NCBI GenBank assembly: GCA_945874225.1
Contig: CAMCFT010000032.1
Span: forward strand, 1-33,554
Direction: 5' to 3'
Length of the DNA: 33,554 bases
From: Flavobacterium psychrophilum
GTDB lineage: Bacteria; Bacteroidota; Bacteroidia; Flavobacteriales; Flavobacteriaceae
The notes beneath the pieces were generated by a model. That model was given only the letters and a program-made list of their open reading frames with translations. It searched no databases and was not told the DNA's origin. How positions within the stretch are numbered: the stretch's first letter is position 1; each line of letters opens with the position of its first letter. Below are positions 2,047 through 20,671 of the stretch, one piece after another. A program made the position numbers and the translations under genes.

Positions 2047-2088
2047 ACCTATAAACACAAAGCCTCACCAACGCCAAGCCCTAAATCA

Positions 2089-3507: not shown

Positions 3508-3509
3508 TG

Positions 3510-3533
3510 TCCTTCGACAAGCTCAGGATGACA
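3510..3533. repeat. Dispersed Bacteroidota repeat half-site
   Basis: CCTTCGACAAGCTCAGGATG followed by ACA is a sequence I recognise as a common dispersed intergenic repeat in Bacteroidota genomes. Only one arm is present, so it cannot form the usual hairpin alone. Confidence 0.5.
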
Positions 3534-3561
3534 GTGAGCAGTGAGCAGTAAAAAGTAAAAA
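3534..3561. repeat. Heptanucleotide tract GTGAGCA/GTAAAAA
   Basis: Four consecutive 7-mers in register: GTGAGCA twice, then GTAAAAA twice. It lies in the 81-bp gap before the short sugar transferase and belongs to the 7-bp-periodic intergenic tracts seen across the window. Confidence 0.7.
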
Positions 3562-3588
3562 GGGATTGGTGTGAAAACCTTAAAATAG

Positions 3589-4134
3589 ATGATAAAGAGA
3601 TTTTTTGACCTATTGTTTTCTTTCGTTGGTCTGCTTGTTGTAGGTTGGCTGATAATTATTTTTTGGATACTGGCCTCCATCGACACTCGATCTAACGGCG
3701 TTTTTATTCAGGAACGAATCGGACAATGGGGAGGTATTTTTAAAATAGTCAAACTTAAGACAATGCATCCCACAACAGCTAAAATCTCTAGACTGGGTAT
3801 GTTTTTAAGGAAGACAAAAATTGATGAATGGCCCCAATTGTGGAATGTTCTGATAGGGAATATGAGTTTTGTGGGTCCACGACCGGATATTCAGGGGTAC
3901 TACGATTTATTGGAAGGAGAAACCAGAAAAATTTTGGAATTAAAACCAGGGATTACCAGTGAGGCTTCTATTAAGTATAAAAATGAAGAAATGCTGCTGG
4001 CAGGACAAGAGAATCCATTGCACTATAATGACAGCGTTATTTTTAAGGACAAGGTGCTCATGAATCTGGATTATTTTTACAATCGAAGTTTTTGGGGAGA
4101 TCTTATGATTATAAGCAGGACAATTTTCGGCTAG
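3589..4134 (+). CDS. Short sugar transferase (PglC-like monotopic phosphoglycosyl transferase)
   Basis: This 181-residue protein consists only of the catalytic bacterial sugar transferase domain. It starts with a basic/hydrophobic re-entrant segment (RFFDLLFSFVGLLVVGWLII, 4-23), then QERIG (41-45), a KLKTM motif (55-59), the catalytic Asp-Glu (KIDEWPQLWNV, 77-87), VGPRP (95-99) and PGITS (120-124). This is the minimal size seen for PglC/WsaP-type enzymes, which add a sugar-1-phosphate to a polyprenyl phosphate without the N-terminal domains. It is the third priming-type transferase in a row. It may start a different glycan or replace the upstream pair. The donor sugar is unknown. Confidence 0.88.
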   Translation: MIKRFFDLLFSFVGLLVVGWLIIIFWILASIDTRSNGVFIQERIGQWGGIFKIVKLKTMHPTTAKISRLGMFLRKTKIDEWPQLWNVLIGNMSFVGPRPDIQGYYDLLEGETRKILELKPGITSEASIKYKNEEMLLAGQENPLHYNDSVIFKDKVLMNLDYFYNRSFWGDLMIISRTIFG

Positions 4135-4159
4135 TTAGGAGTATAGCCTCTTTGATTGG

Positions 4160-4187
4160 ATGCCTTTAGAAAAGGCATTGTCTATTT
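4160..4187 (+). terminator. Hairpin with weak T-run after the transferases
   Basis: ATGCCTTT (4160-4167), a 3-nt loop and AAAGGCAT (4171-4178) form a perfect 8-bp stem, followed by TGTCTATTTT. The T-run is interrupted, so termination may be partial. It separates the priming transferases from the export genes. Confidence 0.5.
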
Positions 4188-4252
4188 TGGCAGATGCAAT
4201 TGAATCTGTCCATTTATTAATAATAATTAATTTAAAGCAAGAGGTTAATGCC

Positions 4253-4260
4253 TATATTTG
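4253..4260 (+). promoter_or_regulatory. Bacteroidota -7 promoter element before wza1
   Basis: TATATTTG matches TAnnTTTG exactly. Transcription would begin near 4266, between an upstream in-frame ATG (4248) and the ATG at 4284. This argues for the latter as the true start. Confidence 0.55.
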
Positions 4261-4283
4261 CAACCATTAAAAAATTAAAAATT

Positions 4284-5078
4284 ATGAAGTATTTTTTTGT
4301 ATTAAAAAAATCAATTCCCTTTCTTTTTGCCGTTTTATTTTTTTCCTGCGCGCCTAAAAAAAGCGTGGTATATTATCAGAATATTGATGGTTTGGCATCA
4401 GGGGAAAAATCAAATTCCTATGAGATAAAAATTCAGCCCGATGATTTGCTCATGATTATTGTTTCAGCCGAAGATCCCGAAACCGCCATTCCTTTTAATT
4501 TGAGTACACTAAGCATTCCTTCGGCTTACAGCCTAAACCCTTCAAAAGGACAGGAAACGATGCAGTCTTATTTAGTGAGCGCAGATGGTTATATTGATTT
4601 TCCCGTATTAGGAAAACTCAAAGTGGCCGGACTGACTCGTTCCGAAATCATGCAATTGTTTCAGGATAAAATCTCGAAATACATTAAAAATCCCATTATA
4701 AACCTGCGCATCCTGAATTTTAAAGTCTCTGTACAGGGAGAGGTTACTTTGCCGGGTACTTATACTATTGCTTCAGATCGCATTACTTTGATAGAAGCCC
4801 TTACTCTGGCCAAAGATTTGACTATCTATGGCAGAAGAGACAATGTCTTGATCATAAGAGAAATAGATGGAGTAAAATCCTATAACCGAGTAGATATTAC
4901 CAAGGCTGATTTTATCAACTCCCCTTTTTATTACCTGGCTCAGAATGATGTGGTCTATGTGGAACCCAATAAAGTCCGAATTAACGGAGCTGCTGTAGGT
5001 GCCAATACCGGAGTAATTATCTCCATTACCTCTCTATTCATTACCCTAATTACATTAATCGTTACTACTAGCAAATAA
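4284..5078 (+). CDS. wza: Wza-like outer-membrane polysaccharide export lipoprotein 1
   Basis: A 264-residue periplasm-facing lipoprotein of the Wza/poly_export family, which forms the outer-membrane channel for the polymer. I start it at 4284, not at the in-frame ATG at 4248. From 4284 the protein begins with a basic N-terminus and a lipoprotein signal ending in LFFSCAPKK, and the promoter element lies between the two ATGs. The body has the poly_export segment (IQPDDLLMIIVSAEDPET and a DGYIDFPVLGKLKVAGLT stretch) and an SLBB-like fold (VSVQGEVTLPGTYTI). It ends in a hydrophobic segment (VIISITSLFITLITLIV) that may span the membrane. The wzc gene starts 8 bp after it, so the two are surely one operon. 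Confidence 0.9.
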   Translation: MKYFFVLKKSIPFLFAVLFFSCAPKKSVVYYQNIDGLASGEKSNSYEIKIQPDDLLMIIVSAEDPETAIPFNLSTLSIPSAYSLNPSKGQETMQSYLVSADGYIDFPVLGKLKVAGLTRSEIMQLFQDKISKYIKNPIINLRILNFKVSVQGEVTLPGTYTIASDRITLIEALTLAKDLTIYGRRDNVLIIREIDGVKSYNRVDITKADFINSPFYYLAQNDVVYVEPNKVRINGAAVGANTGVIISITSLFITLITLIVTTSK

Positions 5079-5086
5079 ATTTTTCC

Positions 5087-7492
5087 ATGGAAGATAATTT
5101 TATGTCAGACGAATATCAGGAAGACGATATTCATTTAAGAACTATTTTAGACAAGTATCTCGTCCATTGGCAATGGTTCGCATTGGCTGTGATAGTGTGT
5201 CTTTTTGTAGCCTATGCCTACTTACGCTACACGATCCCTCAATACAAGGCAACCACAACTGTATTGGTCAAAGACGACAAAAAGGGTGGTGTGCTTTCGG
5301 AACTTTCTGCTTTTGCCGATATGGGACTTGGGTCTGGAATGAAAAGCAATGTGGACAATGAAGTCGAAATTTTGAAGTCAAGGACCTTGGTCGAAAGTGT
5401 GGTCCGAAAACTGAATCTGAACACTAGCTTAATTGTGAAAGGAAATATTGTCGACAGAGAAATTTACAAGCAAACACCCATTACCGTTAATTTCAGCAAT
5501 GCCAAACCGGATTTTGACACGTCAAAAATGCGTCTTAAATTTACGGAGTTAACGTCCAATACCTTTGCATTGGAAAGTGAATCGGAGACTGATTTGGTAT
5601 CTGTAATTCTAAAGAATAAAAAAGAATTCCGCTATGGGGAACTAATTGCCACCAAGAATGCTGACCTGGTTATTAACAAAATGGCGGGTATTGTATTTCG
5701 TTATAAAAACGATGACAAATCGGTTGTCATTGTGGTGAGTCCACTTGAAAATGTAGTGGCAAGTTTTAAGGGCAGACTCGATGTGACTCCCATCAGTAAA
5801 ACGAGTAGTGTGGTTGCCATTTCGCTTAACGATGTCGTGGTTAATAAAGCAGAGGATTTCCTAGATAATCTGATTCAGATTTACAATGAAGATGCTGCTG
5901 CCGACAAGAATTTTATTTCAGAAAGCACCTCAAAATTCATTGCGAACAGACTAATCTTAATTACCCAGGAACTGGATGGAGTGGAGCAGGATGTGCAAAG
6001 TTTTAAAACATCGAACCAGTTGACCGATATCGAATCAGAAGCCAAGCTTTTTATTGAAGGGTCTAGTGACTATAATAAAAAAGTAGCTGAGACCGAAATA
6101 CAAATGAATGTGGTCGCTTCGATGCTTGATTACATGAAAAAAAGCAGCAATGGTGATTTGCTGCCTTCCAATATTATTGCAGGTCAGGGTGATGCATCCG
6201 GACTAATAAGTGCGTTCAATGAATTGGTTTTGCAACGCAACCGGATTTTGAAATCGGCTACTGTGGCGAACCCTTCAGTGGTTAAATTAGATCAGCAGAT
6301 TACTTCCCTAAAAGCCAATGTAGTGGAAAGTTTAAGCCGTATGCAGTCCACCTTAACCATTCAAAAAAGAGATTTAAATAGCCGTGAAGGAATGATGAAT
6401 TCTAAAATTGGCAAAATTCCGGTTCAGGAACGCCAGTTTAGGGTAATCGCCAGACAACAAAAGGTAAAAGAAGAATTATATCTGTATTTACTGCAAAAAA
6501 GAGAAGAAACTGCCATTACGCTAGCTGCTACCCAACCTAATGCGCGGGTTATAGATGATGCGAAAGCTTCTAAATCACCGGTTTCTCCAAAAAAGAATAT
6601 CATTTACCTGGCCGCCTTATTGTTGGGTTTACTGATCCCATATTTAATTATTTATATAAATGAGCTCTTAGACACCAAGGTAAAAAGTCAAAGGGATCTG
6701 GAAGGAAAAACACAAATTCCTTTTATCGGAGACCTGCCCAATTCAGAATCTTCAACCCAATTGATTGATTCTGAAAGCAGAACCAGCTCGGCCGAAGCAC
6801 TGCGAATTATAAGAACCAATCTTGACTTTATGCTGAATGAGGTTCCTGAAGGCAGGGCCAGAACCATCATGATGACATCGACCATTCCCGGAGAAGGAAA
6901 AACATTTGTCGCCGTTAATATGGCGGCTATTTTTGCCCTTTCAGGCAAAAAGGTGCTGTTGGTAGGATTGGATATCAGAAACCCCAAGCTGTCTGATTAT
7001 TTCGATGCACCCCTTAAACAAGGTCTGACGAATTATCTGTCTTCCAAAAATGTTTCGATCGCCGATTATATCACAAAAGTAGAAGGCTTTGAAAGTCTCT
7101 ATGTCCTTCCCACAGGAATTGTACCTCCGAATCCGGTGGAGTTACTGATGAATAAAAAGGTTGACGAACTCTTTGCCCAACTGAAAAAAGAATACGACTA
7201 TATTATAGTTGATACGGCTCCGGTGAGTTTAGTTACCGATACCCTGATTCTGGCAAAATACGTTGATACAACAGTCTATGTGGTCCGGGCCAATCATCTG
7301 GATAAAAGGATGCTCCCAATTCCCGAAAGACTATACAAAGAAAATAAACTGCCTAATATGGCCTTGTTGCTCAATGATACCCAGACCTCAAAAGGATATG
7401 GTTATGGTTACGGCTATGGATATGGCTATGGATATGGCTATGGTGTCAAGGTTGAAAAAAAGCCGTGGTACAAGACCATTTTTAATAAATAA
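5087..7492 (+). CDS. wzc: Wzc-type polysaccharide co-polymerase with BY-kinase domain 1
   Basis: This 801-residue inner-membrane protein sets chain length and couples polymerisation to export through tyrosine autophosphorylation. It has a Wzz-like N-terminus with a membrane segment at about 29-48, a large periplasmic region with coiled-coil character (about 270-470) and a second membrane segment (about 503-525). The cytoplasmic kinase has Walker A PGEGKT (GEGKT 602-606), Walker A' GLDIRNPK (D629) and Walker B YIIVDTAP (D709). The first Asp of the classical DxD Walker A' is a Gly. The C-terminus has eight Gly-Tyr pairs (770-785), which would be the autophosphorylation cluster. They are encoded by a hexamer repeat. 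A second start 15 bases downstream is possible. Confidence 0.93.
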   Translation: MEDNFMSDEYQEDDIHLRTILDKYLVHWQWFALAVIVCLFVAYAYLRYTIPQYKATTTVLVKDDKKGGVLSELSAFADMGLGSGMKSNVDNEVEILKSRTLVESVVRKLNLNTSLIVKGNIVDREIYKQTPITVNFSNAKPDFDTSKMRLKFTELTSNTFALESESETDLVSVILKNKKEFRYGELIATKNADLVINKMAGIVFRYKNDDKSVVIVVSPLENVVASFKGRLDVTPISKTSSVVAISLNDVVVNKAEDFLDNLIQIYNEDAAADKNFISESTSKFIANRLILITQELDGVEQDVQSFKTSNQLTDIESEAKLFIEGSSDYNKKVAETEIQMNVVASMLDYMKKSSNGDLLPSNIIAGQGDASGLISAFNELVLQRNRILKSATVANPSVVKLDQQITSLKANVVESLSRMQSTLTIQKRDLNSREGMMNSKIGKIPVQERQFRVIARQQKVKEELYLYLLQKREETAITLAATQPNARVIDDAKASKSPVSPKKNIIYLAALLLGLLIPYLIIYINELLDTKVKSQRDLEGKTQIPFIGDLPNSESSTQLIDSESRTSSAEALRIIRTNLDFMLNEVPEGRARTIMMTSTIPGEGKTFVAVNMAAIFALSGKKVLLVGLDIRNPKLSDYFDAPLKQGLTNYLSSKNVSIADYITKVEGFESLYVLPTGIVPPNPVELLMNKKVDELFAQLKKEYDYIIVDTAPVSLVTDTLILAKYVDTTVYVVRANHLDKRMLPIPERLYKENKLPNMALLLNDTQTSKGYGYGYGYGYGYGYGYGVKVEKKPWYKTIFNK
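7394..7441 (+). repeat. Hexanucleotide repeat encoding the Gly-Tyr tail
   Basis: Eight GGNTAY units (GGATAT, GGTTAT, GGTTAC, GGCTAT and so on) in frame encode (Gly-Tyr)8 at the end of the kinase. Gain or loss of units would change the tyrosine number without a frameshift. Confidence 0.85.
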
Positions 7493-7517
7493 AAAAGTAG
7501 GCGAAAGCCTCTTTTTT
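7491..7517 (+). terminator. Rho-independent terminator after wzc1
   Basis: AGGC, a GAAA tetraloop and GCCT (7499-7510) are followed by C and six T. Six A (7491-7496) upstream can pair with the T-run and extend the stem. It overlaps the end of the wzc stop codon region and should close the wza1-wzc1 transcript. Confidence 0.85.
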
Positions 7518-7566
7518 CTATGGGTTGCTCCCTGACTCCCGAAAAGGAGGGACTGGCTCCCTAAAG

Positions 7567-7799
7567 AGAGGAATTTATTTATAGAATGGTCATAGGTTTT
7601 TTCTTCACCCTTTAGGGTAGAGGAAAAAAGAAAAAACAATCCTAGAGGAATTTATAGAATGGTTATAAGTTTTTTCTTCACCCTTTAGGGTAGAGGAAAA
7701 AAGAAAAAACAAATCTAAAAAGAGGAATTTATTTATAGAATGGTTATAAGTTTTTTCTTCACCCTTTAGGGTAGAGGAAAAAAGAAAAAACAAATTTAG
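7567..7799. repeat. Three tandem hairpin repeats of 73-79 bp
   Basis: The copies span 7567-7643, 7644-7716 and 7721-7799. Each starts AGAGGAATTTAT and carries TTCACCCTTTAGGGTAGAGG flanked by T6C on the left and A-rich GAAAAAAG on the right. This folds into a long stem with a CCCT/AGGG core and two G-T wobbles. Copies differ by a 4-bp TTAT unit and a few substitutions. There are no unique spacers, so this is not a CRISPR. The stems could terminate transcription in either direction. Confidence 0.85.
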
Positions 7800-7812
7800 A
7801 GGAAGGAATCAC

Positions 7813-7820
7813 TACATTTG
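7813..7820 (+). promoter_or_regulatory. -7 promoter element of recR
   Basis: TACATTTG matches TAnnTTTG. Its last base is only 5 nt from the recR ATG, so transcription would start at or next to the start codon, predicting a leaderless or nearly leaderless mRNA. Confidence 0.55.
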
Positions 7821-7825
7821 TCTTT

Positions 7826-8443
7826 ATGGAATTTTCATCAAAACTTTTAGAAAAAGCAGTCAACGAAATGGCGCAGTTGCCGGGAATCGGAAAGAGAACA
7901 GCACTAAGGCTGGTTTTGCATTTATTGAAGCAGCCCAAAGAGCACACTGGTTTTCTGGCTCAGTCTCTGACAACCATGCGCGAAGAGGTGAAGTTTTGTG
8001 TGAGCTGCCATAACATTTCGGATGTGGAGGTTTGCGAGATTTGTTCGAACAATAAGAGAGACCATCAGATTATTTGCGTGGTCGAAGATATTCGCGATGT
8101 AATGGCTATCGAAAACACTGGGCAATTTAGAGGGATTTATCACGTTTTAGGAGGTAAGATTTCGCCTATAGACGGTGTGGGTCCTAGCCAATTAAATATC
8201 AATTCTCTGGTCGAAAAAGTGAAATCAGGTAATGTCAGCGAGATTATTTTTGCTTTGAGCTCAACGATGGAAGGGGATACCACCAATTTTTATATCTATA
8301 AGCAAATACAGGATTGCGACATCATTACCTCTACCATTGCCCGTGGAATATCTGTTGGAGATGAACTGGAATATGCAGATGAGGTTACATTAGGAAGGAG
8401 TATTCTGCAGCGCGTTCCGTTTGAAAAGTCTTTTAAGGCATAG
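7826..8443 (+). CDS. recR: Recombination mediator RecR
   Basis: This 205-residue housekeeping DNA-repair protein works with RecO (and RecF) to load RecA on single-stranded gaps. It has the helix-hairpin-helix LPGIGKRTA (18-26) and four zinc-binding cysteines (C58, C61, C70, C73). A Toprim domain begins [14 protein letters not shown] (83-96), followed by [16 protein letters not shown] (105-120). Length and N-terminus match known RecR, which supports the start despite the very close promoter. It is unrelated to polysaccharide synthesis and sits between two export operons, isolated by terminators upstream and a minisatellite downstream. Confidence 0.97.
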
Positions 8444-8532
8444 GGTTATCGGTTATTGGTTATCTGTTATTGGTTATCTGTTATTGGTTATCTGTTATTG
8501 GTTGTGGGTTATTGGTTGTGGGTTATTGGTTG
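8444..8532. repeat. Heptad minisatellite after recR (14-bp higher-order unit)
   Basis: It begins directly after the recR stop. The unit GGTTATCTGTTATT and variants repeat 6.4 times without loss of register over 89 bp. Each 14-mer is two 7-mers of the form GTTATYK. Variants are GGTTATCGGTTATT (first) and GGTTGTGGGTTATT (last two), which suggests slippage with partial homogenisation. It is the most regular heptad tract in the window. Confidence 0.92.
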
Positions 8533-8623
8533 TTTTTTCAAAACAGGCATTTGATACAAACAAGCTATTAACAATTAATCCATTTAATGAATGGCGATAT
8601 TTTTAAATTATTAAATGAAAAGC

Positions 8624-8631
8624 TATATTTG
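8624..8631 (+). promoter_or_regulatory. -7 promoter element of the wza2-wzc2 operon
   Basis: TATATTTG matches TAnnTTTG and lies 17 nt before the wza2 start codon, which fits a short leader. No clear -33 element is visible. Confidence 0.55.
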
Positions 8632-8648
8632 TTATCTAAAATATAAAA

Positions 8649-9437: not shown

Positions 9438-9449
9438 TAAAAGTCAAAA

Positions 9450-11918: not shown

Positions 11919-11931
11919 GAGGTTTGTTTAA

Positions 11932-12924
11932 ATGAAAAGAATGAAAGAAAGTACAAAAAGCACGATATTAATTACAGGTGGAGCAGGTTTTATAGGTTCC
12001 AATCTATGTGACTATTTTTTATCAAAAGGACATCAGGTAGTTTGTCTGGATAATTTTGCCACAGGACACAGGCATAATCTAAAGGATTTCATCACGAACG
12101 AAAACTTCCGTTTGATAGAAGGTGATATTCGGAATTTGCTAGATTGCCAGAATGCCGTGCAAGGTGTGGATTATGTTTTGCATCAGGCAGCTTTGGGTTC
12201 TGTTCCAAGATCAATTAATGATCCCATTACCACTAACGATGTGAATGTCTCCGGGTTTTTAAATATGCTCGTGGCTTCTCGCGATGCTAAGGTGAAACGA
12301 TTTATGTATGCCGCCAGCTCTTCGACTTATGGAGATTCAGAGGGATTACCCAAAGTGGAGGAAGTGATCGGGAAACCGCTTTCGCCTTATGCGATTACCA
12401 AATACGTCAACGAACTCTATGCTGAAATATTCAGTCGGACTTATGGATTGGAAACCATAGGGTTGCGCTATTTTAATGTTTTTGGAAGAAAGCAAGATCC
12501 CAAAGGAGCTTATGCCGCCGTTATTCCAAAATTTGTGATGCAGCTGATGCAGCTCGAAAGCCCAAAAATAAACGGTGATGGGAATTATTCGCGTGATTTC
12601 ACGTATATCGATAATGTGATACAAATGAATGAACTGGCGATGACTACCCAAAATCCGGCAGCCGTCAATACGGTTTATAATACGGCTTACGGCGACCGAA
12701 ACACCCTTAATAATTTGGTAGAATATTTAAAAGAATATTTGGCGGAATACGATCCGCGAATAGCTGATGTTGCTATAGAATATGGTCCTAACCGAGCAGG
12801 CGATATTCCCCATTCTCTGGCCAGTATTGAAAAAGCAAAAACTCTGTTGGGGTATGACCCACAATTTTCGTTGCAGCAAGGGTTGAAAGAAGCGGTGAGT
12901 TGGTATTGGGAGAATTTGAAGTAG
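11932..12924 (+). CDS. wbpP: WbpP/TviC-type UDP-N-acetylhexosamine 4-epimerase
   Basis: This 330-residue short-chain dehydrogenase/reductase interconverts UDP-GlcNAc and UDP-GalNAc, and in this subfamily also the uronic acids. It has the NAD-binding GxxGxxG (G16, G19, G22), then DNFATGH and DIRNL. HQAALGSVPRSINDPIT closely matches what I recall of Pseudomonas WbpP. AASSSTYGDS and the catalytic Tyr-x3-Lys (Y153, K157; YAITKYVNELYAEIFSR) follow. It starts 13 bp after wzc2, so it belongs to that operon. An in-frame Met at residue 4 is an alternative start. With the TviB/WbpO-type dehydrogenase at 14764 it would supply UDP-GalNAc and UDP-GalNAcA. Confidence in the subfamily is high; the direction in the cell is inferred. 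Confidence 0.93.
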   Translation: MKRMKESTKSTILITGGAGFIGSNLCDYFLSKGHQVVCLDNFATGHRHNLKDFITNENFRLIEGDIRNLLDCQNAVQGVDYVLHQAALGSVPRSINDPITTNDVNVSGFLNMLVASRDAKVKRFMYAASSSTYGDSEGLPKVEEVIGKPLSPYAITKYVNELYAEIFSRTYGLETIGLRYFNVFGRKQDPKGAYAAVIPKFVMQLMQLESPKINGDGNYSRDFTYIDNVIQMNELAMTTQNPAAVNTVYNTAYGDRNTLNNLVEYLKEYLAEYDPRIADVAIEYGPNRAGDIPHSLASIEKAKTLLGYDPQFSLQQGLKEAVSWYWENLK

Positions 12925-12951
12925 TTGTTGGTTGTTGGTTGTCTGTTGTTA
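12924..12951. repeat. Heptad tract after wbpP
   Basis: Four 7-mers in register, GTTGTTG, GTTGTTG, GTTGTCT, GTTGTTA. They start at the last base of the epimerase stop codon. Confidence 0.8.
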
Positions 12952-13042
12952 GGGGCTTATGATAAAAAATCGACTATTAATAAAAAAATAAAGTTATAAA
13001 GTTAAATATATAAATGATTTATGGGTTATCGTTAATCAGTGC

Positions 13043-13070
13043 AAAACTGAAAACTGAAAACTGAAAACAG
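13043..13070. repeat. Heptad tract AAAACTG before ugd
   Basis: AAAACTG three times followed by AAAACAG, ending 11 nt before the ugd start codon, so it would form the ribosome-binding leader of that gene. Confidence 0.8.
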
Positions 13071-13081
13071 AAATACAGAAA

Positions 13082-14473
13082 ATGAAAATTACAAAAATTT
13101 GTTGCATTGGAGCAGGATACGTTGGAGGACCGACGATGGCAATTATTGCGCAAAAATGTCCTCACATTCAGGTTACCGTTGTAGATTTGAATGCGGAACG
13201 CATTGCAGCTTGGAACGATGAAGACCAAAATAACATTCCCATATACGAACCAGGATTAAGCGATATTGTTGCCGAAGCCAGAGGCCGAAACCTGTTTTTT
13301 TCGACTAATGTGGATCAGGCGATTGATGAAGCCCAAATCATTTTCATATCAGTAAACACTCCAACAAAAACATACGGTAAAGGCAAAGGAATGGCGGCCG
13401 ATTTGAAATACATCGAATTGTGCGCCAGACAAATTGCTAAAATTGCCAAAGACGATAAAATTGTGGTCGAGAAATCGACCTTGCCCGTACGTACTGCCGA
13501 AGCTATCAAGAGCATTTTGGACAATACTGGGAATCACGTAAAGTTTCAGATTCTTTCCAATCCGGAGTTTCTTGCCGAGGGAACAGCTGTTCAGGATTTA
13601 TTGAATCCCGACCGCATACTGATTGGCGGAGATCCGTCGGCTGAAGGTCAGGAAGCGATACAAGCCCTTGTGGATGTTTATTCCAACTGGGTGGCTCCTG
13701 AAAAAATACTGACTACCAATGTGTGGTCATCTGAATTATCGAAACTGACTGCCAATGCTTTTTTAGCACAAAGAATATCATCTATCAATTCCTTGTCAGA
13801 ACTTTGTGAAAAAACGGGTGCCGACATCAATGAAGTGGCCAAGGCTATAGGAACGGACAGCAGAATAGGACCCAAGTTCCTCAAAGCTTCTGTTGGTTTT
13901 GGAGGTTCTTGTTTTCAGAAAGACATTCTGAATTTGGTTTATATCGCCAAATCCTATGGGCTAAACGAGGTAGCCGATTATTGGGAACAGGTGATTATAA
14001 TGAACGACCATCAGAAAAAGCGGTTTGCCAATAAAATTGTACAGACACTTTACAATACCGTTTCCGATAAGAAAATTTCATTTTTAGGATGGGCTTTCAA
14101 GAAAGATACTAATGACACTAGAGAATCAGCGGCGATTTATGTAGCCAATGATTTAATTAACGAACACGCACAAATAGCGGTTTATGACCCCAAAGTCTCC
14201 CGTAAAAAAGTGCTGAATGATTTGGATTATTTAGAAAGCAGAACTTCTGAGAAAAATGCCAATGCCATCAGTTCCTTTGACAGTCCTTATGAAGCTTGCA
14301 AGGGGGCACACGCAATTGCCGTACTGACGGAATGGGATGAATTTGTTTACTATGACTGGCAAAAAATATATGACGGTATGCAAAAACCAGCCTTTGTCTT
14401 TGATGGAAGAAATATTCTGGACAAGAAAGCATTGGAGGCTATTGGATTTGAATTTCATGGGATAGGGTCGTGA
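13082..14473 (+). CDS. ugd: UDP-glucose 6-dehydrogenase, animal-like subfamily
   Basis: This 463-residue NAD-dependent enzyme oxidises UDP-glucose to UDP-glucuronic acid. It has the Rossmann motif [13 protein letters not shown] (G10, G12, G15), [39 protein letters not shown] and [20 protein letters not shown]. The catalytic cysteine is C277 in [12 protein letters not shown]. The C-terminal domain contains [14 protein letters not shown] and IAVYDPKV. These motifs and the ~460-residue length resemble animal UGDH (catalytic Cys276 in human) much more than the shorter Ugd of Gram-negative models, as far as I recall the sequences. It opens the nucleotide-sugar block. No TAnnTTTG is visible in the 157-bp gap before it. 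Confidence 0.96.
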
Positions 14474-14477
14474 AGGA

Positions 14478-14519
14478 GTTGTCGGTTGTAAGTTATGGGT
14501 TGTCGGTTTTGGGTTATGT
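14478..14519. repeat. Heptad tract after ugd
   Basis: Six 7-mers in register, GTTGTCG, GTTGTAA, GTTATGG, GTTGTCG, GTTTTGG, GTTATGT. GTT opens every unit while the last four bases vary. Confidence 0.85.
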
Positions 14520-14560
14520 GTCTTAGCCGCAATATCATTTAGTTAAGAATAAATATACAA

Positions 14561-14670
14561 TAACTTTGTCATTTCGACTTAGGAGAAATCACATTAGTTG
14601 CTCTCGTTATTTGGTTTACTTCGTCCGTTCGCTTTGCTCGGGTCTCCCGTTGGTCGAAACGACAAAGTAA
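14561..14670. repeat. Inverted repeat, MITE-like
   Basis: ACTTTGTCATTTCGAC (from 14563) pairs with GTCGAAACGACAAAGT (ending near 14668), with one mismatch. The 70-80 bp between the arms has no gene. The design, with GTC-ending arms and an unrelated middle, is like the element at 87-212 but the sequence differs. The left edge contains TAACTTTG (14561-14568), a chance or real match to the -7 consensus. Confidence 0.7.
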
Positions 14671-14763
14671 CTCTTTACTTAATATCGTAGAAATTGAACT
14701 GATGCGGTTCTGAATTAAAAAGAATAAAACAATGGTTTTCTCATTGGAAACAAAAAATAAAAA

Positions 14764-16047
14764 ATGAAAACAGATATAAAAATAGCTATTATTGGTTTAG
14801 GTTACGTAGGCTTGCCCTTGGCGCGATTGTTTGCAACAAAATATTCAGTGGTAGGATTTGACATCAATCAGTCCAGAATCGATGCACTTAAACAAGGAAA
14901 CGACAGTACTCTCGAGATCGATTCTGTCAGCTTGCAGCAGGTATTAGTTGAAACTTCGACTAATGGCATTGGTTTGTATTGTACTTCAACACTTTCTGAT
15001 ATAGCGGATTGTAATTATTTTATTGTTACCGTTCCCACGCCAGTGGACAAAAATAATCGCCCTGATTTAACGCCTTTGTACAAGTCCAGCGAGACAGTGG
15101 GCAAAGTATTGAAAAAAGGAGACATTGTCATTTATGAATCTACCGTTTATCCAGGAGTTACTGAGGAGGAATGTGTGCCAGTTCTGGAAAGAATTTCAGG
15201 TTTGCAATTCAATGTTGATTTTTTTGCGGGGTATTCACCTGAAAGAATCAATCCTGGCGACAAAGAGCATACTGTGGATAAAATTCTGAAAGTCACTTCG
15301 GGTTCCACTCCTGAAATCGGACAGAAAGTCAATCAATTGTACCAATCGGTGATTACGGCAGGAACACATCTGGCTCCTTCGATAAAAGTGGCGGAAGCTG
15401 CTAAGGTAATTGAAAATTCACAGCGCGATATCAACATTGCTTTTGTTAATGAATTGGCTAAAATATTCAATATTTTAGAAATCAATACGCATGCCGTGCT
15501 TGAAGCAGCGGGAACCAAATGGAATTTCCTGCCTTTCAAACCGGGTTTGGTTGGTGGTCACTGCATTGGCGTTGATCCCTATTATTTGGCTCAAAAAGCT
15601 CAGGAAATGGGATATCATCCCGAAATTATTCTGGCAGGACGCCGTTTGAATGACAGCATGGGTGAGTATGTGGCTTCGCAGGTGGTCAAACTCATGATTA
15701 AAAAAGGAGTCACAATAAACGGAGCAAGTCTTTTGATGTTAGGCATTACTTTTAAGGAAAACTGCCCCGATGTTCGCAATACTAAAATTGTTGACGTTAT
15801 CAAAGCATTGGAAGATTATGGGATTAAAGTGAGTATTTTTGATCCTTGGGCCAATCCAGTTGAGGTCTTGCACGAATATGGATTGAATACCAGCAATCAA
15901 CCACCAACAGTCACTTTTGACGCTGTGGTTTTAGGTGTGGCACATCATGAATTTTTAACATTGGACATTGATGCCCTCAGAAATCAGAACAGTGTTCTTT
16001 ATGACGTAAAAGGAGTTTTAGGCGATGGTGTTGACGGGAGGCTTTAA
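14764..16047 (+). CDS. tviB: UDP-N-acetylhexosamine 6-dehydrogenase (TviB/WbpO type)
   Basis: This 427-residue NAD-dependent nucleotide-sugar dehydrogenase makes a UDP-N-acetylhexosaminuronic acid. It has the Rossmann motif IIGLGYVGLPLA (G11, G13, G16), TVPTPVD, YESTVYPGVTEEE, YSPERINPGD and ENSQRDINIAFVNELA. The catalytic cysteine is C267 in VGGHCIGVDPYY. The C-terminal domain has LGITFKENCPDVRNTK. I place it in the TviB/WbpO subfamily on YSPERINPGD, AGTKWNFLPFKPGLVGGHC and the pairing with a WbpP-type epimerase, which is the arrangement in Vi antigen and Pseudomonas O6 loci. The product would be UDP-GlcNAcA or UDP-GalNAcA. Confidence 0.92.
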   Translation: MKTDIKIAIIGLGYVGLPLARLFATKYSVVGFDINQSRIDALKQGNDSTLEIDSVSLQQVLVETSTNGIGLYCTSTLSDIADCNYFIVTVPTPVDKNNRPDLTPLYKSSETVGKVLKKGDIVIYESTVYPGVTEEECVPVLERISGLQFNVDFFAGYSPERINPGDKEHTVDKILKVTSGSTPEIGQKVNQLYQSVITAGTHLAPSIKVAEAAKVIENSQRDINIAFVNELAKIFNILEINTHAVLEAAGTKWNFLPFKPGLVGGHCIGVDPYYLAQKAQEMGYHPEIILAGRRLNDSMGEYVASQVVKLMIKKGVTINGASLLMLGITFKENCPDVRNTKIVDVIKALEDYGIKVSIFDPWANPVEVLHEYGLNTSNQPPTVTFDAVVLGVAHHEFLTLDIDALRNQNSVLYDVKGVLGDGVDGRL

Positions 16048-16055
16048 GATTTGTA

Positions 16056-16083
16056 GTTATCAGTTATCGGTTGACGGTTTGAG
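16056..16083. repeat. Heptad tract after tviB
   Basis: Four 7-mers in register, GTTATCA, GTTATCG, GTTGACG, GTTTGAG, nine bases after the stop codon. Confidence 0.75.
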
Positions 16084-16086
16084 GTA

Positions 16087-16159
16087 GCAGAAGGCAGAAG
16101 GCAAATTTCAGAGAAAAGAGAAAAGAGAAAAGAGAAAAGAAGAAAGAGAAAAGATAAAT
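16087..16159. repeat. Purine-rich heptad tracts up to the rmlB start
   Basis: GCAGAAG twice plus GCAAATT (16087-16107), then from 16111 GAGAAAA four times, GAAGAAA, GAGAAAA and GATAAAT without loss of the 7-bp register (16111-16159). It ends three bases before the rmlB ATG and provides its purine-rich leader. Confidence 0.85.
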
Positions 16160-16162
16160 AAA

Positions 16163-17209
16163 ATGAAAAAAATATTGATTACCGGTGGTGCAGGATTTAT
16201 TGGTTCGCATGTGGTGCGACTTTTTGTTCAAAAATATCAGGAATACCATATTTATAATTTAGATGCCCTTACTTATGCGGGGAATCTTGAAAACATTACC
16301 GATATCGAAAAAGAATCCAATTATACATTTGTAAAAGGGGATATTACTGACGAGCCTTTTATTGCTCAGTTGTTTCAGGAGCATCAGTTTGAAGGTGTCA
16401 TTCATCTGGCTGCCGAATCGCATGTGGATCGCTCCATCGAAGATCCGATGGCTTTTGTAAAAACTAATGTGATAGGAACTGTGAATTTACTTAATGCGGC
16501 TCGAAAACAATGGGCGAATAACAGTGAAGGGAAACGTTTTTATCATGTAAGCACTGATGAGGTATATGGTTCCTTGGGTGCCGAAGGTTTGTTTACTGAA
16601 ACTACTCCTTACGATCCCAATTCTCCTTATTCGGCTTCCAAAGCCAGTTCAGATCATTTTGTGAGAGCCTATGGCGAGACCTATGGTTTGCCGTTTGTGC
16701 TGACTAACTGTTCCAATAATTATGGGCCCAACCATTTTCCTGAAAAATTAATTCCGTTGTTTATCAATAATATTATTAATAATAAACCCTTGCCCGTTTA
16801 TGGGGACGGAAATTATACCCGAGACTGGTTGTTTGTAAAAGATCATGCCGTGGCGATTGATTTGGTTTTTCATCAGGGAAATAATCATGAAACTTATAAT
16901 ATTGGAGGTTTTAACGAATGGAAAAATATTGATTTGGTTAAGGTGTTGTGCCAAATTATGGATCAGAAATTGGGCAGAGCAGCAGGTGAATCGTCAAAAT
17001 TAATTACTTATGTCAAAGACCGACCGGGACATGACTTGCGTTACGCTATTGATGCTTGTAAAATAAACAGGGAATTGGGATGGAAACCCTCAGTCACTTT
17101 CGAACAGGGACTGGAAATTACCATTGATTGGTACTTGAATAATCAAGAATGGCTGAACAATGTGACTTCGGGAGATTATGAGAAGTATTATGAGAAGATG
17201 TATTCGTGA
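16163..17209 (+). CDS. rfbB: dTDP-glucose 4,6-dehydratase
   Basis: This 348-residue enzyme (RmlB) converts dTDP-glucose to dTDP-4-keto-6-deoxyglucose, the branch point to dTDP-rhamnose and other 6-deoxysugars. It has the NAD-binding GGAGFIGSH (G8, G11, G14) and LAAESHVDRSI. Catalytic Asp-Glu are in STDEVYG (D132, E133) and Tyr-x3-Lys is in YSASKASSDH (Y156, K160). NCSNNYGPNHFPEKLIP and GDGNYTRDWL follow. Length is normal. The usual partners rmlA, rmlC and rmlD are absent from this window, so they must lie elsewhere or the product feeds another deoxysugar. The GT2 at 28726 resembles rhamnosyltransferases, which would fit. Confidence 0.96.
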   Translation: MKKILITGGAGFIGSHVVRLFVQKYQEYHIYNLDALTYAGNLENITDIEKESNYTFVKGDITDEPFIAQLFQEHQFEGVIHLAAESHVDRSIEDPMAFVKTNVIGTVNLLNAARKQWANNSEGKRFYHVSTDEVYGSLGAEGLFTETTPYDPNSPYSASKASSDHFVRAYGETYGLPFVLTNCSNNYGPNHFPEKLIPLFINNIINNKPLPVYGDGNYTRDWLFVKDHAVAIDLVFHQGNNHETYNIGGFNEWKNIDLVKVLCQIMDQKLGRAAGESSKLITYVKDRPGHDLRYAIDACKINRELGWKPSVTFEQGLEITIDWYLNNQEWLNNVTSGDYEKYYEKMYS

Positions 17210-17213
17210 GAGG

Positions 17214-17241
17214 GTTGTCGGTTATGAGTTATCGGTTATGA
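17214..17241. repeat. Heptad tract after rmlB
   Basis: Four 7-mers in register, GTTGTCG, GTTATGA, GTTATCG, GTTATGA. The first ten bases (17214-17223) are the exact reverse complement of 17337-17346 and of 17344-17353. Confidence 0.8.
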
Positions 17242-17332
17242 AACATGATATTGAACCTACAACTTAACAATAAAAGAGATCTGTTAAAAGTATTTTTGAA
17301 TAAATATACCTTCGTTTAAATTAAATAAGATC

Positions 17333-17353
17333 CGACAACCGACAACCGACAAC
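17333..17353. repeat. Antisense heptad tract before upxY
   Basis: CGACAAC three times in perfect register, the reverse complement of GTTGTCG. It ends 17 nt before the upxY start codon and can pair with the tract at 17214-17241. Confidence 0.85.
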
Positions 17354-17370
17354 AGAAAACAGAAGAAACT

Positions 17371-17841
17371 ATGAATTGGTATGTAGTGTACACCAAGCCC
17401 AAGTGGGAAAAAAAGGTAGCAGAGCGATTGAATGAAATTGGAGTGGTGACTTATTGTCCGTTGGTTACAAAAGTGAGTCAATGGTCTGATCGGAAAAAAA
17501 TTGTAAGTGTGCCTTTGTTTAATTCCTATATATTTGTTCATATTGAAGAAAAGGAACGGAATCGTATATTTGAAGTAACGGGTGCCGTTCGTTATTTGTT
17601 TTGGTTGGGAAAACCTGCAATAGTTAAGGATTCAGAAATTGAAGCCATTAAAAATTGGCTTTCTGTACCAGAAGTTTACGAAGTTTCTTTGGATCAATGG
17701 AAAAAAGGAGATAAAATTGTGTTGGATTCGGGTCCGTTTATAAGCCAGTCTGCCATAATTCAGGAAGTAAAACAGCATCATTATATTTTAATTTTGGAAT
17801 CGTTGGGTTGTGTGCTCCGAGTGGATAAAAAAGAGCTTTAA
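17371..17841 (+). CDS. upxY: NusG-like transcription antiterminator (UpxY/RfaH type)
   Basis: This 156-residue protein is predicted to join RNA polymerase and suppress early termination in long polysaccharide operons. It has a NusG N-terminal domain that starts MNWYVVYTKPKWEKKVAERL and includes YCPLVTKVSQWSDRKK and the VPLFNSYIFVHI strand. A C-terminal KOW-like part follows (KGDKIVLDSGPF at 112-123). Bacteroides UpxY proteins are similar in size and start the capsule operon. Here the gene lies in the middle of the locus, just before the third export module. Its probable targets are therefore the leader at 17842-18221 and the long AT-rich cassette beyond. No good -7 consensus precedes it; TACCTTCG at 17307 is one base off. 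Confidence 0.9.
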   Translation: MNWYVVYTKPKWEKKVAERLNEIGVVTYCPLVTKVSQWSDRKKIVSVPLFNSYIFVHIEEKERNRIFEVTGAVRYLFWLGKPAIVKDSEIEAIKNWLSVPEVYEVSLDQWKKGDKIVLDSGPFISQSAIIQEVKQHHYILILESLGCVLRVDKKEL

Positions 17842-17894
17842 ATATTTTTTAAGCATTTATATTTAAAAATAATTGGGCATTAGAATTGAATTTA

Positions 17895-18026
17895 TCAGGC
17901 AAGTGGTTTGTATATAGTAAATTATGCATAAGAAATCTGCATAATTTTATCTGTTTAAAAGCACTATATTGTGCGAATAAAAGACGGCAAATCTTTTTAA
18001 TTTACTATAAATTTGCAAATGCCTGA
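17895..18026 (+). ncRNA. Candidate structured leader RNA or cruciform element
   Basis: Outer arms TCAGGCA (17895-17901) and TGCCTGA (18020-18026) pair. TATAGTAAATTA (17913-17924) pairs exactly with TAATTTACTATA (17998-18009). Inside are two more hairpins: TTATGCA/TGCATAA (17922-17928 with 17938-17944, followed by TTTT) and GCAC/GTGC (17961-17964 with 17971-17974). The TTATGCA stem overlaps the outer arm by three bases (17922-17924), so the two could be alternatives, as in an attenuator. It could instead be a MITE. The type is inferred. Confidence 0.45.
18008..18015 (+). promoter_or_regulatory. -7 promoter element before the third export module
   Basis: TAAATTTG matches TAnnTTTG exactly and overlaps the right arm of the inverted repeat, so DNA folding or binding there would block it. 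It would give a leader of about 200 nt. No clear -33 element. Confidence 0.4.
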
Positions 18027-18074
18027 AGTTATGGTGCACCTGTTATGGGAGTCACTAAGGCGAAGCCATGAAAA

Positions 18075-18109
18075 GTTGTCGGTTAGCAGTTTTGGGTTGA
18101 GGGTTATTT
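18075..18109. repeat. Heptad tract in the SLBB exporter leader
   Basis: Five 7-mers in register, GTTGTCG, GTTAGCA, GTTTTGG, GTTGAGG, GTTATTT. Confidence 0.75.
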
Positions 18110-18221
18110 TAGCATATTACATAATACCCTGAAATAGCAGAAAGAGATTACTTTTTTAACAATAATAACCATTTAATTGCGTTTACTTTTTTTAAAATTT
18201 AATATTAATTACTATAGCATT

Positions 18222-20642
18222 ATGAGAAAAATAGTTACTGTCATTTTATTTTTGTTTGTCCTTTTTCAATCGGGAACACTGATGGCTCAGGATTTGTTAA
18301 AAGGCTCTGACTTGAGCACGCTCAAAGTGGATTATTTATCAGATACCGATATTTCTAAAATAAAATCACAGTTGCAAGCGAACAACACCACTATTGAGCA
18401 GGTGGAGCCGATGGCATTGGCCAAAGGGATGTCGGCAACTGAGTTTGCTAAATTAAAAGTGCGATTAGGAGTTCCGATTACTACGACGGCAGTTCCAAAA
18501 AAAGAGAATGTGGATGAGAATACAGTAGAACTGACTCGGAAACAAGATAAAATTGTCAACAAGAAGGTGAAAGACACCTTGAATTCGCTGGTTTTTGGAT
18601 CGGAGTTGTTTGATAATCCTACCTTGAATTTTGAGCCCAATTTAAAATTAGCCACCCCGGTAAATTATATTTTAGGTCCTGGAGATGAATTGCAAATCAG
18701 TGTTTATGGAGTGCAGGAGTTTAATGCCAGTATTCCCGTAACAATGGAAGGCAAGGTTAATATTCAAAATGTAGGCCAAATTCCGGTTTCGGGAATGACT
18801 ATTGAGGCAGCCACCCAGAAAATAAAGGGAGCTATAGCCAGAGTATATAGAACAGTACAATCAGGACAATCTCAAGTCGGAATTAGCCTGAGTCGCATCA
18901 GGACCATTAAAGTAACCATTATTGGCAGTAAACAACCCGGTAATTATTCTGTTTCTTCTTTGGCAACCGTGTATAACGCCTTATTTTTAGGAGGTGGACC
19001 CGGGAAAAACGGAAGTTACAGAAACATTGAGCTGTTAAGAAACAACAAAGTATACAAGAAAATTGATATTTATAATTTTTTGGTCAACGGCAATCAATCG
19101 GATAATGTTGGTCTGAAGGACAACGATGTCATTCGAATTCCAACCTATACGCAAAGAGTTACTGTGGAAGGTCAGGTAAAACGTCCCGGTATTTTCGAGA
19201 TGAAAGCAGGGGAGACTTTCAAAGATTTACTGACCTTTGCTTCCGGATTCAATGAGTTTGCCTACACGGCATCGGTGAATGTGCTACAAAAAACATCCAG
19301 AGATTTTAAGGTAAAAGACATACAAGCGGCTGAATACAATAGCTACAAACCACTTGCCGGCGATGTGTATCGGGTTTCTAAGATTTTAAACCGATTTGAG
19401 AATCGTATTAAAATTGAAGGAGCGGTTTTTAGACCCGATGTCTATTCCTTTTATGAGGGAATGCGTATTGCTGATTTGATCGCTCAGGCCGATGGACTTA
19501 AAGAAGATGCTTATACCAATAGGGCTACCATTGTTCGATTGAAAGCAGATTTGACATCAGAAGTAACCAATGTAAATTTGGCCAAAGCTATGGCAGGAGA
19601 TCCCGATGCCAATATCAGCCTGAAAAGAGAAGACATTGTAACGGTCTATTCTGTTTTAGATTTCAAGGAGGAATATAAAATCACCATTGACGGGGAGATT
19701 AAAAAACCGGGAGTATTTGAGTATCACGATAACCTGACTTTGAATGATTTATTGGTTCAGGCAGGCGGATTGACGGGTTCAGCATCCAAAAGAGTGGAGA
19801 TTGCCCGAATGATCAAATCGGATGAAATAGACGAAACTAATCCTAGCAGAGTACAATTGTTTAATCTGGAGATTACAGCGGGGTCCAATGAGCAAATCAA
19901 AAATTTTGAATTGCAGCCCTTTGATGTAGTCAATATCCGCAGAATGGCTGTTTATGAAAAACCAGAGATGGTAACCATTAGCGGAGCAGTAAATTATTCC
20001 GGGAAATATGTGTTGGCCAATAAAAAGGAAAAAATATATGATGTCATTCAAAGAGCTGGAGGGCTGACTTCGATAGCCAATTTAGATGGAGTAAAAATCA
20101 AACGCCCTATCCAGGCCAAACAAATTGAAGAATTGGAAAATGTGGATCTTAATTTAGGAAAGAAAGACTCTATTCAAAATAAACTAACCAAAAAATTAAA
20201 AGAAGATTTAAAATATTCAACCATTCCTGTTGAGTGGAGAAAAATTCTAAAAGACCCTAGCGATAACACCAATGTTACTTTATTTCCTGGTGATGAAATC
20301 GAAGTTTCTTTTTACAATGAAAGCGTAAAAGTAACAGGTAGTGTTCTTTTGACCTCGGAGATTCCCTACGAGAAAGGCAAAGAATTTGGATACTATCTAG
20401 GAGCTGTTGGCGGCACTGATGCCAAGGGCTGGAAGAAAAAATCCTATATCATTTATCCCAACGGTAAGGCGGCAGTTTCGAGTACTTTCTTTTTTATACG
20501 ATCTTATCCTAAGGTTTTGCCGGGTTCTCAAATTGTAGTTCCTGAAAAACCGGAAGGCAAAAAGATGAGTACCGGAGAATGGGTGAGTATAGGTAGTGTT
20601 ATGACGAGTCTGGCCTTATTGATTGTAACGGCGTTTAAATAG
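18222..20642 (+). CDS. Large SLBB-domain polysaccharide export protein (Wza family)
   Basis: An 806-residue outer-membrane export protein, about three times the size of the two other Wza-like proteins here. I start it at 18222 rather than at an in-frame ATG 45 bases upstream. From 18222 it begins MRKIVTVILFLFVLF and has a normal signal peptide ending near LMAQ. After a charged linker comes the poly_export domain (YILGPGDELQISVYGVQEF, then a VTMEGKVNIQNVG stretch). Several SLBB repeats follow, with recurring VTVEGQVKRPGIF, IKIEGAVFRPDVY, ITIDGEIKKPGVF and VTISGAVNYSGKY strands. It ends in a hydrophobic segment (WVSIGSVMTSLALLIVTAF). It is not lipid-anchored, unlike Wza1 and Wza2. A kinase-less Wzz follows after 60 bp. 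Confidence 0.92.
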   Translation: MRKIVTVILFLFVLFQSGTLMAQDLLKGSDLSTLKVDYLSDTDISKIKSQLQANNTTIEQVEPMALAKGMSATEFAKLKVRLGVPITTTAVPKKENVDENTVELTRKQDKIVNKKVKDTLNSLVFGSELFDNPTLNFEPNLKLATPVNYILGPGDELQISVYGVQEFNASIPVTMEGKVNIQNVGQIPVSGMTIEAATQKIKGAIARVYRTVQSGQSQVGISLSRIRTIKVTIIGSKQPGNYSVSSLATVYNALFLGGGPGKNGSYRNIELLRNNKVYKKIDIYNFLVNGNQSDNVGLKDNDVIRIPTYTQRVTVEGQVKRPGIFEMKAGETFKDLLTFASGFNEFAYTASVNVLQKTSRDFKVKDIQAAEYNSYKPLAGDVYRVSKILNRFENRIKIEGAVFRPDVYSFYEGMRIADLIAQADGLKEDAYTNRATIVRLKADLTSEVTNVNLAKAMAGDPDANISLKREDIVTVYSVLDFKEEYKITIDGEIKKPGVFEYHDNLTLNDLLVQAGGLTGSASKRVEIARMIKSDEIDETNPSRVQLFNLEITAGSNEQIKNFELQPFDVVNIRRMAVYEKPEMVTISGAVNYSGKYVLANKKEKIYDVIQRAGGLTSIANLDGVKIKRPIQAKQIEELENVDLNLGKKDSIQNKLTKKLKEDLKYSTIPVEWRKILKDPSDNTNVTLFPGDEIEVSFYNESVKVTGSVLLTSEIPYEKGKEFGYYLGAVGGTDAKGWKKKSYIIYPNGKAAVSSTFFFIRSYPKVLPGSQIVVPEKPEGKKMSTGEWVSIGSVMTSLALLIVTAFK

Positions 20643-20643
20643 T

Positions 20644-20671
20644 AATTCAGGTTTCAGGCAGCAGATTTCAG
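20644..20671. repeat. Heptad tract before wzz
   Basis: ATTCAGG, TTTCAGG, CAGCAGA and TTTCAGA occur in 7-bp register directly after the stop codon of the SLBB exporter. The rest of the gap (to 20702) is A-rich and holds two similar 15-mers. Confidence 0.6.

Follow-up and report, generated by a model that had tools for sequence, protein, structure and literature searches.

We analyzed a 33,554-nucleotide stretch of Flavobacterium DNA (contig CAMCFT010000032.1 of GenBank assembly GCA_945874225.1; this whole stretch is called the window) whose intergenic gaps contain tandem arrays of 7-nucleotide units, and compared it with stretches from related genomes. The arrays share a 7-bp ruler, lie at gene edges, have a polarity, hold some positions of their unit and leave others free, and turn over rapidly between species. 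Our main finding is the polarity: in the relatives, arrays of the major family (unit GTTNTNR) expose GTT on the sense strand after stop codons and the complementary AAC before start codons, a rule that is near-absolute at both gene edges and limited in distance. We regard the tracts as intergenic heptanucleotide arrays of the kind known from Beggiatoaceae, cyanobacteria and Xanthomonas, the two-edge orientation rule being apparently new. The interpretation to which we lean, tentatively, is that the arrays arise by slippage and, serving as mRNA leaders and trailers, are retained in a single orientation.

The wider counts were taken from relatives, not from the window's own genome. Eighty loci (L001 to L080) were picked by RecR and are, with the window, the sole samples free of any choice by pattern; 20-kb stretches of F. 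ammonificans (G011), F. soyangense (G001) and F. agrisoli (G014) lie partly over known matches and may overstate period-7 counts, and the other stretches were chosen around matches, orientation being no part of the choice. Overlapping, pattern-centered loci (L081 to L110 and L171 to L200) were excluded from every count, arrays identical including their flanks were counted once, and we disregarded fuzzy arrays with a shorter inner period as well as gaps below 30 or 40 bp. Samples from sister species lack full independence. Genes were called by a simple script that takes the longest open reading frame.

In all data combined, the 3-unit arrays lying at most 15 nt from a gene edge carried GTT after stops in 60 of 60 cases and AAC before starts in 56 of 56. 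The ratio of favored to other orientation was 8:3 after stops and 8:1 before starts at 16–40 nt, 11:4 and 6:2 at 41–100 nt, and 5:3 and 8:7 beyond 100 nt (13 of 23 in the favored orientation). Arrays of 2 units within 15 nt gave 70:4 after stops and 67:1 before starts (137 of 142). When orientation is scored as inward, i.e., with the GTT strand reading into the gap from the nearest gene border, 124 of 140 3-unit arrays in 201 loci qualify, as do all 6 in the window; counted per genome, 22 of 26 were inward, 2 outward and 2 tied. Fuzzy GTT arrays behaved likewise (28:6 after stops, 31:2 before starts; convergent gaps had 11:0 and divergent ones 6:1, inward to outward). Where both orientations occurred in one gap they formed convergent pairs, GTT preceding AAC in 6 of 6, and single arrays followed the polarity in 53 of 58. 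A replication covered 40 regions surrounding matches in 10 additional genomes of the phylum, hand-picked from 36 with matches; 37 of 41 arrays were inward.

The other unit families lean the same way near edges (inward to outward 19:4 for TACGA, 7:0 for AGTGA and 10:1 for GATTT) and are mixed farther out; GTTTCA arrays near edges were inward in 17:0, mostly from one orthologous gap. Lone RGTTNT motifs lean like the arrays but less (294:120 at the left and 195:130 at the right end of gaps), and the lone TACGA motif had no side bias (34:29 left, 20:22 right).

The arrays press closely against the genes. Within 15 nt of an edge lay 116 of 182 3-unit GTT arrays, compared with 57 under random placement, which bears out the earlier note on this DNA, a reading of the sequence without database searches, in its remark that most tracts directly follow a stop or precede a start codon. 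Among arrays that obey the rule, the median distance was 6 nt from the stop codon to the first unit and 9 nt from the last unit to the start codon. The adjoining stop codon was TAG in 23 of 49 distinct cases counted by hand (25 of 52 with duplicates) vs. 496 of 2,883 genes overall; many junctions read TA-GTT, so that the final base of the stop codon is also the first of the array, and the in-register motif does not go deeper into the coding end than about one unit. The enrichment of TAG indicates that the arrays press up to the last base that is free to change. No significant locking of the array phase to the stop or start codon was found (p = 0.16 and 0.41, respectively). The neighbors include housekeeping genes and have no function in common.

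Inside called genes of the 201 loci there were 32 3-unit arrays (sense strand AAC in 22, GTT in 10), and since some of the AAC arrays lie midway in long frames, the polarity rule is limited to gaps. Four of the 10 GTT arrays are at most 101 nt away from the called start, two of them in frames made by the repeat itself; the regions from further genomes added 4 in-gene arrays, one with GTT 14 nt past the called start. Locus L012 contains two open frames consisting largely of GTT heptamers (15288–15587 and 16148–16435, with 27 and 26 overlapping matches). Such frames can be mistaken for genes in annotation.

The period-7 signal in the intergenic tracts of the window is real. Its 18 gaps of at least 30 bp (3,235 bp) held 8 strict period-7 tracts (runs at the given lag with at least 8 matched positions) vs. 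a mean of 0.16 after dinucleotide shuffling (maximum 3 in 300 shuffles). Across periods 3–15 only period 14 joined it in clear excess (4 tracts; period 8 had 1, the rest none), and coding DNA showed no excess (2 vs. 1.13 expected). Seven of the 8 strict tracts were among those listed in the earlier note; the eighth, at 70–84, was not, and the long tract at 8444 was scored under period 14 rather than 7. Tandem Repeats Finder (score 30) returned rows of period 7 or 14 at 3532, 8444, 12924, 13043, 14477, 16087, 16110, 17214 and 17332, and none for 16056 as GTT, 18075 or 20644. In 6 of the 8 gaps containing the 12 tracts of that note (3508–3588, 8444–8648, 12925–13081, 14474–14763, 16048–16162 and 17210–17370) the best lag-7 segment exceeded all 500 shuffles; in the gaps with the 18075 and 20644 tracts it was reached by 230 and 32 of the 500, respectively, neither being significant alone. 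The claim of a strict 7-bp period thus holds for six gaps and lacks significance for these two, and "perfect register" was too strong: the tract at 13043 has 7% indels, that at 14478 matches at 70–75%, and that at 8444 is a 14-mer of alternating heptamers (94% vs. 74% matches).

In the 80 recR-region loci (866 gaps) there were 116 tracts of period 7 vs. 10.4 expected and 104 of period 14 vs. 10.0; periods 8, 10, 11 and 16 were raised as well (24–34 tracts, period 8 having 34). The coding DNA of these loci gave 39 period-7 tracts vs. 38 expected, so that the excess in gaps without one in genes is common to the window and the 80 loci. The stretches of F. soyangense had 31, 33 and 30 tracts at periods 7, 14 and 21 vs. 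about 3 (period 8: 13), those of F. ammonificans 17 at period 7 vs. 2.7, with periods 6, 8, 9, 10 and 16 also raised, and in those of F. agrisoli period 7 was weak (11 vs. 3.0). In the period spectrum proposed as a check, period 7 therefore leads over shuffled controls in the gaps of the window and of the relatives, but it is not exclusive in every genome. On the closed chromosome of F. ammonificans 8 of 11 distinct arrays are concentrated in a single 180-kb stretch, where 5,000 random trials gave at most 7 (the width having been set post hoc). One gap of this species contains (L128, 901–1214) 3 tandem copies of a unit of about 126 bp with AAC heptamers in each copy.

The tracts had been taken for unrelated sequences with a common period. 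Most of those in the window belong, however, to one degenerate family, GTTNTNR, on either strand: AAAACTG at 13043 and CGACAAC at 17333 are GTTTTCA and GTTGTCG of the opposite strand, so that the description of the sequences as different is in part mistaken. The first three bases had been described as fixed and the last four as drifting; positions 1–3 are indeed held, and so is the T at position 5, which leaves positions 4, 6 and 7 variable. Unsupervised phase alignment of 198 arrays (from the window, L001 to L080 and the 20-kb stretches of G011, G001 and G014) gave GTT-N-T-(C/G)-N as the sharpest class. Deviation in the GTT class (124 of 334 arrays) was 0.19, 0.14, 0.12, 0.30, 0.17, 0.30 and 0.36 at positions 1 to 7. 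The positional unevenness of this class was 1,099 vs. 571 ± 30 for an even spread (95 arrays with enough deviations), that of TACGANN 121 vs. 97 ± 13 (16 arrays) and that of the remaining classes 881 vs. 822 ± 38 (137 arrays), the classing by majority unit possibly inflating the contrast slightly.

The minor units are TACGANN, GTTTCAR, AGTGANN and GATTTNN. TACGANN arrays were found in 12 of 28 searched genomes and their backward-read control in 0 of 28. GTTNTNR was also considered as a unit favored throughout the phylum and rejected as such: 4-unit matches numbered 320 in 36 of 148 genomes, and since the backward-read control was nearly as frequent (230 in 35), specificity across the phylum is not demonstrated; this control is not clean, GTTGTTG fitting both directions. 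Within 18 genomes of the Flavobacterium group, chosen partly for recR loci rich or poor in tracts, overlapping matches summed by hand were 469 for GTTNTNR vs. 114 for the control.

The same gap can carry other units or no array at all in sister species, which indicates fast turnover. In most of the relatives compared, the gap 3' of recR measures about 70 bp and includes an element resembling TATATTTG or TATCTTTG; this end of the gap is retained in the window, which has gained an array and about 45 bp immediately after the stop codon. Among these relatives only F. soyangense has an array behind recR, at the same point and in the same register, with units other than those of the window. At the gap that begins at 17210 in the window, the spacing in L002, L004 and L006 is about 50 bp and free of arrays, F. 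soyangense has a GTTATGR array of several hundred bp after the stop, and L003 has a short GTT tract after the stop and a long AAC array before the start. Between species, array units and lengths thus differ wholly at one and the same gap. The idea that arrays mark seams of gene shuffling met with mixed counts. Orthologs of the flanking genes were non-adjacent at four array gaps in 5 of 69, 9 of 65, 7 of 53 and 29 of 35 loci and at the recR array gap in 0 of 74; the figures for array-free gaps were 0 of 6, 0 of 6, 0 of 72, 0 of 70, 2 of 3 and 2 of 2, three of these gaps having only 8–13 bp.

The earlier note knew of no description for this type of genome. This does not hold, since MacGregor reported TAACTGA arrays in five Bacteroidetes (MacGregor, 2015, PMC4679880). 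TAACTGA, found in gap arrays of Beggiatoaceae, cyanobacteria and some Bacteroidetes, is GTTATCA on the opposite strand and so falls within GTTNTNR; of the sets in the Beggiatoaceae genome, 147 of 170 (Table 1 of that paper) are oriented toward start codons, as is AAC before starts here (56 of 56 within 15 nt), and long arrays and other heptamers are recorded from Bacteroidetes (PMC4679880). There, one exact heptamer dominates and related ones are rarely repeated, whereas the units described here vary at positions 4, 6 and 7, and in the sections of the paper available to us the opposite orientation after stops is found only in single cases (PMC4679880). Window units are GTTATCG/T, GTTGTTG, GTTGTCG and GTTTTCA; the exact unit is not the dominant direct repeat of the window, GTTATCA being present only in the 16055 tract, mixed with others, and it forms exact arrays in the related genome G057.

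The GGGAATC repeats of Xanthomonas, (GGGANTN)n, and the GGGGA(C/T)T repeats of Nostoc likewise have fixed and free positions, are mostly intergenic, form convergent pairs (70 and 75 cases) and lie closer to the open reading frame on their own 5' side (28 vs. 160 nt, the same inward geometry), long arrays not being common to both species (PMC4692102). They differ in sequence, being G-rich and possibly forming quadruplexes, and no two-edge rule is framed in the parts of that paper accessible to us (PMC4692102). GTT units are without GGG except where a unit junction reads GGGTT. Among long simple sequence repeats, heptanucleotides are the commonest class of 5–11 nt in most genomes (Mrazek, 2007, cited in PMC4679880), and polymerase slippage over 7 nt has been proposed as their cause (cited in PMC4679880). 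Searches of the open PMC library, subscription papers aside, brought up no account of such arrays in Flavobacterium nor, in the texts consulted, of a polarity at both edges. For the short tandemly repeated heptamers of cyanobacteria and for long simple repeats, which form a general class, we know of no edge polarity.

Copies are gained and lost fast, most likely via replication slippage by 7 nt and unequal exchange; Cyanothece strains differ by 7-nt steps (PMC4679880). The arrays sit right up to the stop and start codons, where extra DNA is tolerated. In the observed geometry, mRNAs would carry the AAC strand as leader ahead of start codons and the GTT strand as trailer behind stop codons, if the gaps are transcribed with the genes. 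Translation in Flavobacterium starts without Shine-Dalgarno sites and appears to favor adenine-rich, unstructured leaders, which may be the reason why a GTT leader would be selected against, as an AAC stretch beside a stop codon would be too. The leader half fits work on translation in F. johnsoniae, where adenines at −3, −6, −12 and −13 and low structure are reported to favor translation (PMC6847099). The fading of the polarity with distance would follow because only leader and trailer positions should matter.

Several observations weigh against slippage arrays held in one orientation as leaders and trailers. The trailer polarity is as strict as the leader polarity, without a known reason. 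TACGA arrays are inward near edges although lone TACGA is unbiased, so that base composition alone does not account for the polarity. The held positions 1, 2, 3 and 5 are not predicted by slippage, poor conservation of the arrays between sister species argues against an important role, and the enrichment of the favored orientation at edges requires more than loss of the opposite one. If all five in-gene GTT arrays near called starts are counted as lying before starts, AAC:GTT becomes 56:5. Because the trailer half is unsupported and TACGA misfits the argument from composition, we hold this reading with less than even confidence and grant a directional generator a low, though not negligible, probability.

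Such a generator would be a sequence-guided process that adds heptads at gene edges, the GTT strand running 5' to 3' outward from both gene ends. The geometry resembles that of telomere repeats, and the heptads might be added, e.g., by extending 3' ends along a template during repair or gene-cassette insertion. The exceptionless polarity of 3-unit arrays within 15 nt in called gaps, its recurrence in several unrelated unit families, the fixed and free positions of the units, and the addition of whole arrays at gaps that are bare in relatives all speak for it, and telomerase-like synthesis of repeats with a fixed ruler exists in bacteria (DRT10, PMC12632851). DRT10, however, makes antiviral cDNA with a 9-nt repeat in the main example, and its paper, in the parts available, demonstrates neither entry into the chromosome nor a link to chromosomal arrays (PMC12632851). 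A telomerase-like reverse transcriptase was rejected as the agent: with one Pfam model on draft genomes, RVT_1 was matched in 10 of 22 and in none of the array-rich G009, G013, G014, G057 and G164. The majority of arrays are single-sided, and their exact ends at coding edges are left unexplained. Of the single generating mechanism that had been postulated, the common 7-bp ruler stands; no agent was found. That Bacteroidota, and perhaps Beggiatoaceae, cyanobacteria and Xanthomonas, share one directional gene-edge system, with a 7-nt ruler, a partly fixed unit, one strand running outward from both gene ends as on linear DNA and fast rewriting whatever the function of the gene, we consider unlikely.

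Similarly doubtful is that the arrays are kept for regulation as platforms for a protein of the RRM, cold-shock or S1 type that reads one heptad of RNA or DNA per contact. The position-specific constraint on the unit and the location at edges would fit, and S1, Csp or Csr proteins were proposed for TAACTGA by MacGregor (PMC4679880). An RRM protein as the required reader was rejected: RRM_1 is present as a single copy in 20 of 22 genomes, array-rich and array-poor alike, and was not found in the array-rich G057 and G131. Fast turnover in sister species, and neighbors without a common function, housekeeping genes included, also speak against a platform.

Plain slippage amplifying the base bias of gap ends, which are slightly G/T-rich after stops and A-rich before starts, is more doubtful still. 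The lone RGTTNT motifs share the bias, but that of the arrays is much stronger (69:6, p = 5e-5, and 55:10, p = 1e-4), and TACGA arrays lean without any bias of their lone motif. The polarity, the fixed and free unit positions and the rapid replacement are constraints that plain slippage does not meet, which matters since the origin and role of heptamer arrays, recorded from scattered bacteria, are not agreed upon. Should the arrays affect leaders and trailers, they would form a fast-changing layer of expression control, at surface polysaccharide loci among others.

Paired arrays as arms of intercistronic hairpins, of terminators or of a small mobile element with heptamer inverted repeats are very improbable as a general account: the convergent order of pairs and a left-right pairing at score 24 in 10.7% of array gaps vs. 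4.0% of mismatched controls (array-free gaps 3.7% vs. 1.2%) would fit, but two folded window gaps did not surpass their shuffles (z = −1.1 and −1.0), single arrays predominate (58 vs. 12 in pairs), and clear arms were seen at one gap only, in 24 of 80 recR-region loci. Each half of this gap (L022, 7571–7655, with counterparts in 23 other loci) is a heptamer array, and the two pair into a hairpin with the arms GTTTCAA / TTGAAAC; L068 and L010 have GTTTAAA / TTTAAAC arms instead, so both arms change together.

The window represents a Flavobacterium polysaccharide locus. Its RecR (7826–8443) shares 96% identity with the F. soyangense protein (L001), and a Pfam scan of ten genes returned sugar transferases, RecR, polysaccharide export proteins, epimerase/dehydratases, UDP-sugar dehydrogenases and a NusG-like protein. 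The GTT-family array of two alternating heptamers (8444–8534, plus strand) directly follows the TAG stop of recR (8441–8443). The GTTGTTG array (12924–12951, plus strand) takes its first base from the TAG stop of the epimerase gene; in the same gap the AAAACTG array (13043–13088, GTTTTCA on the minus strand) reaches up to the start codon of a UDP-sugar dehydrogenase gene at 13082, whose TGA stop is followed after 4 nt by a degenerate GTTNTNN array (14478–14521, plus strand). After the second UDP-sugar dehydrogenase gene there is a short degenerate GTT array (16055–16084, plus strand) and then, upstream of a start codon at 16163, GCAGAAG and GAGAAAA heptamers (16087–16158). A GTT array of 14-mer period (17214–17241, plus strand) lies after the stop codon of the dehydratase gene, and the NusG-like gene, with its start codon at 17371, is preceded by a CCGACAA array (17332–17364, GTTGTCG on the minus strand). 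The two tracts not significant alone are a weak GTT-like one (18075–18105, plus strand) and a weak TTCAGGx one (20644–20669). A non-GTT tract at 3532–3562 (CAGTGAG 2.6 times, then AGTAAAA 2.3 times), in a gap that beats 500 of 500 shuffles, separates two sugar-transferase genes.

These two genes (357–1811 and 2079–3508) are a tandem pair with similar upstream stretches; both match one place in F. soyangense (L001, 4701–6158, with 89% and 72% identity), which indicates that a copy was gained or lost in one lineage. The gap upstream of recR contains, at 7561–7795, an 81-bp unit 3 times in tandem (87% matches) with a hairpin-like core. The palindromic stretch at 14560–14680 (TTTGTCATTTCGAC ... 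GTCGAAACGACAAA), after the GTT array, resembles a dispersed intergenic repeat. The NusG-like gene (PF02357, 17371–17841), whose leader bears the CCGACAA array, lies within the polysaccharide locus, and its product is perhaps a specialized antiterminator.

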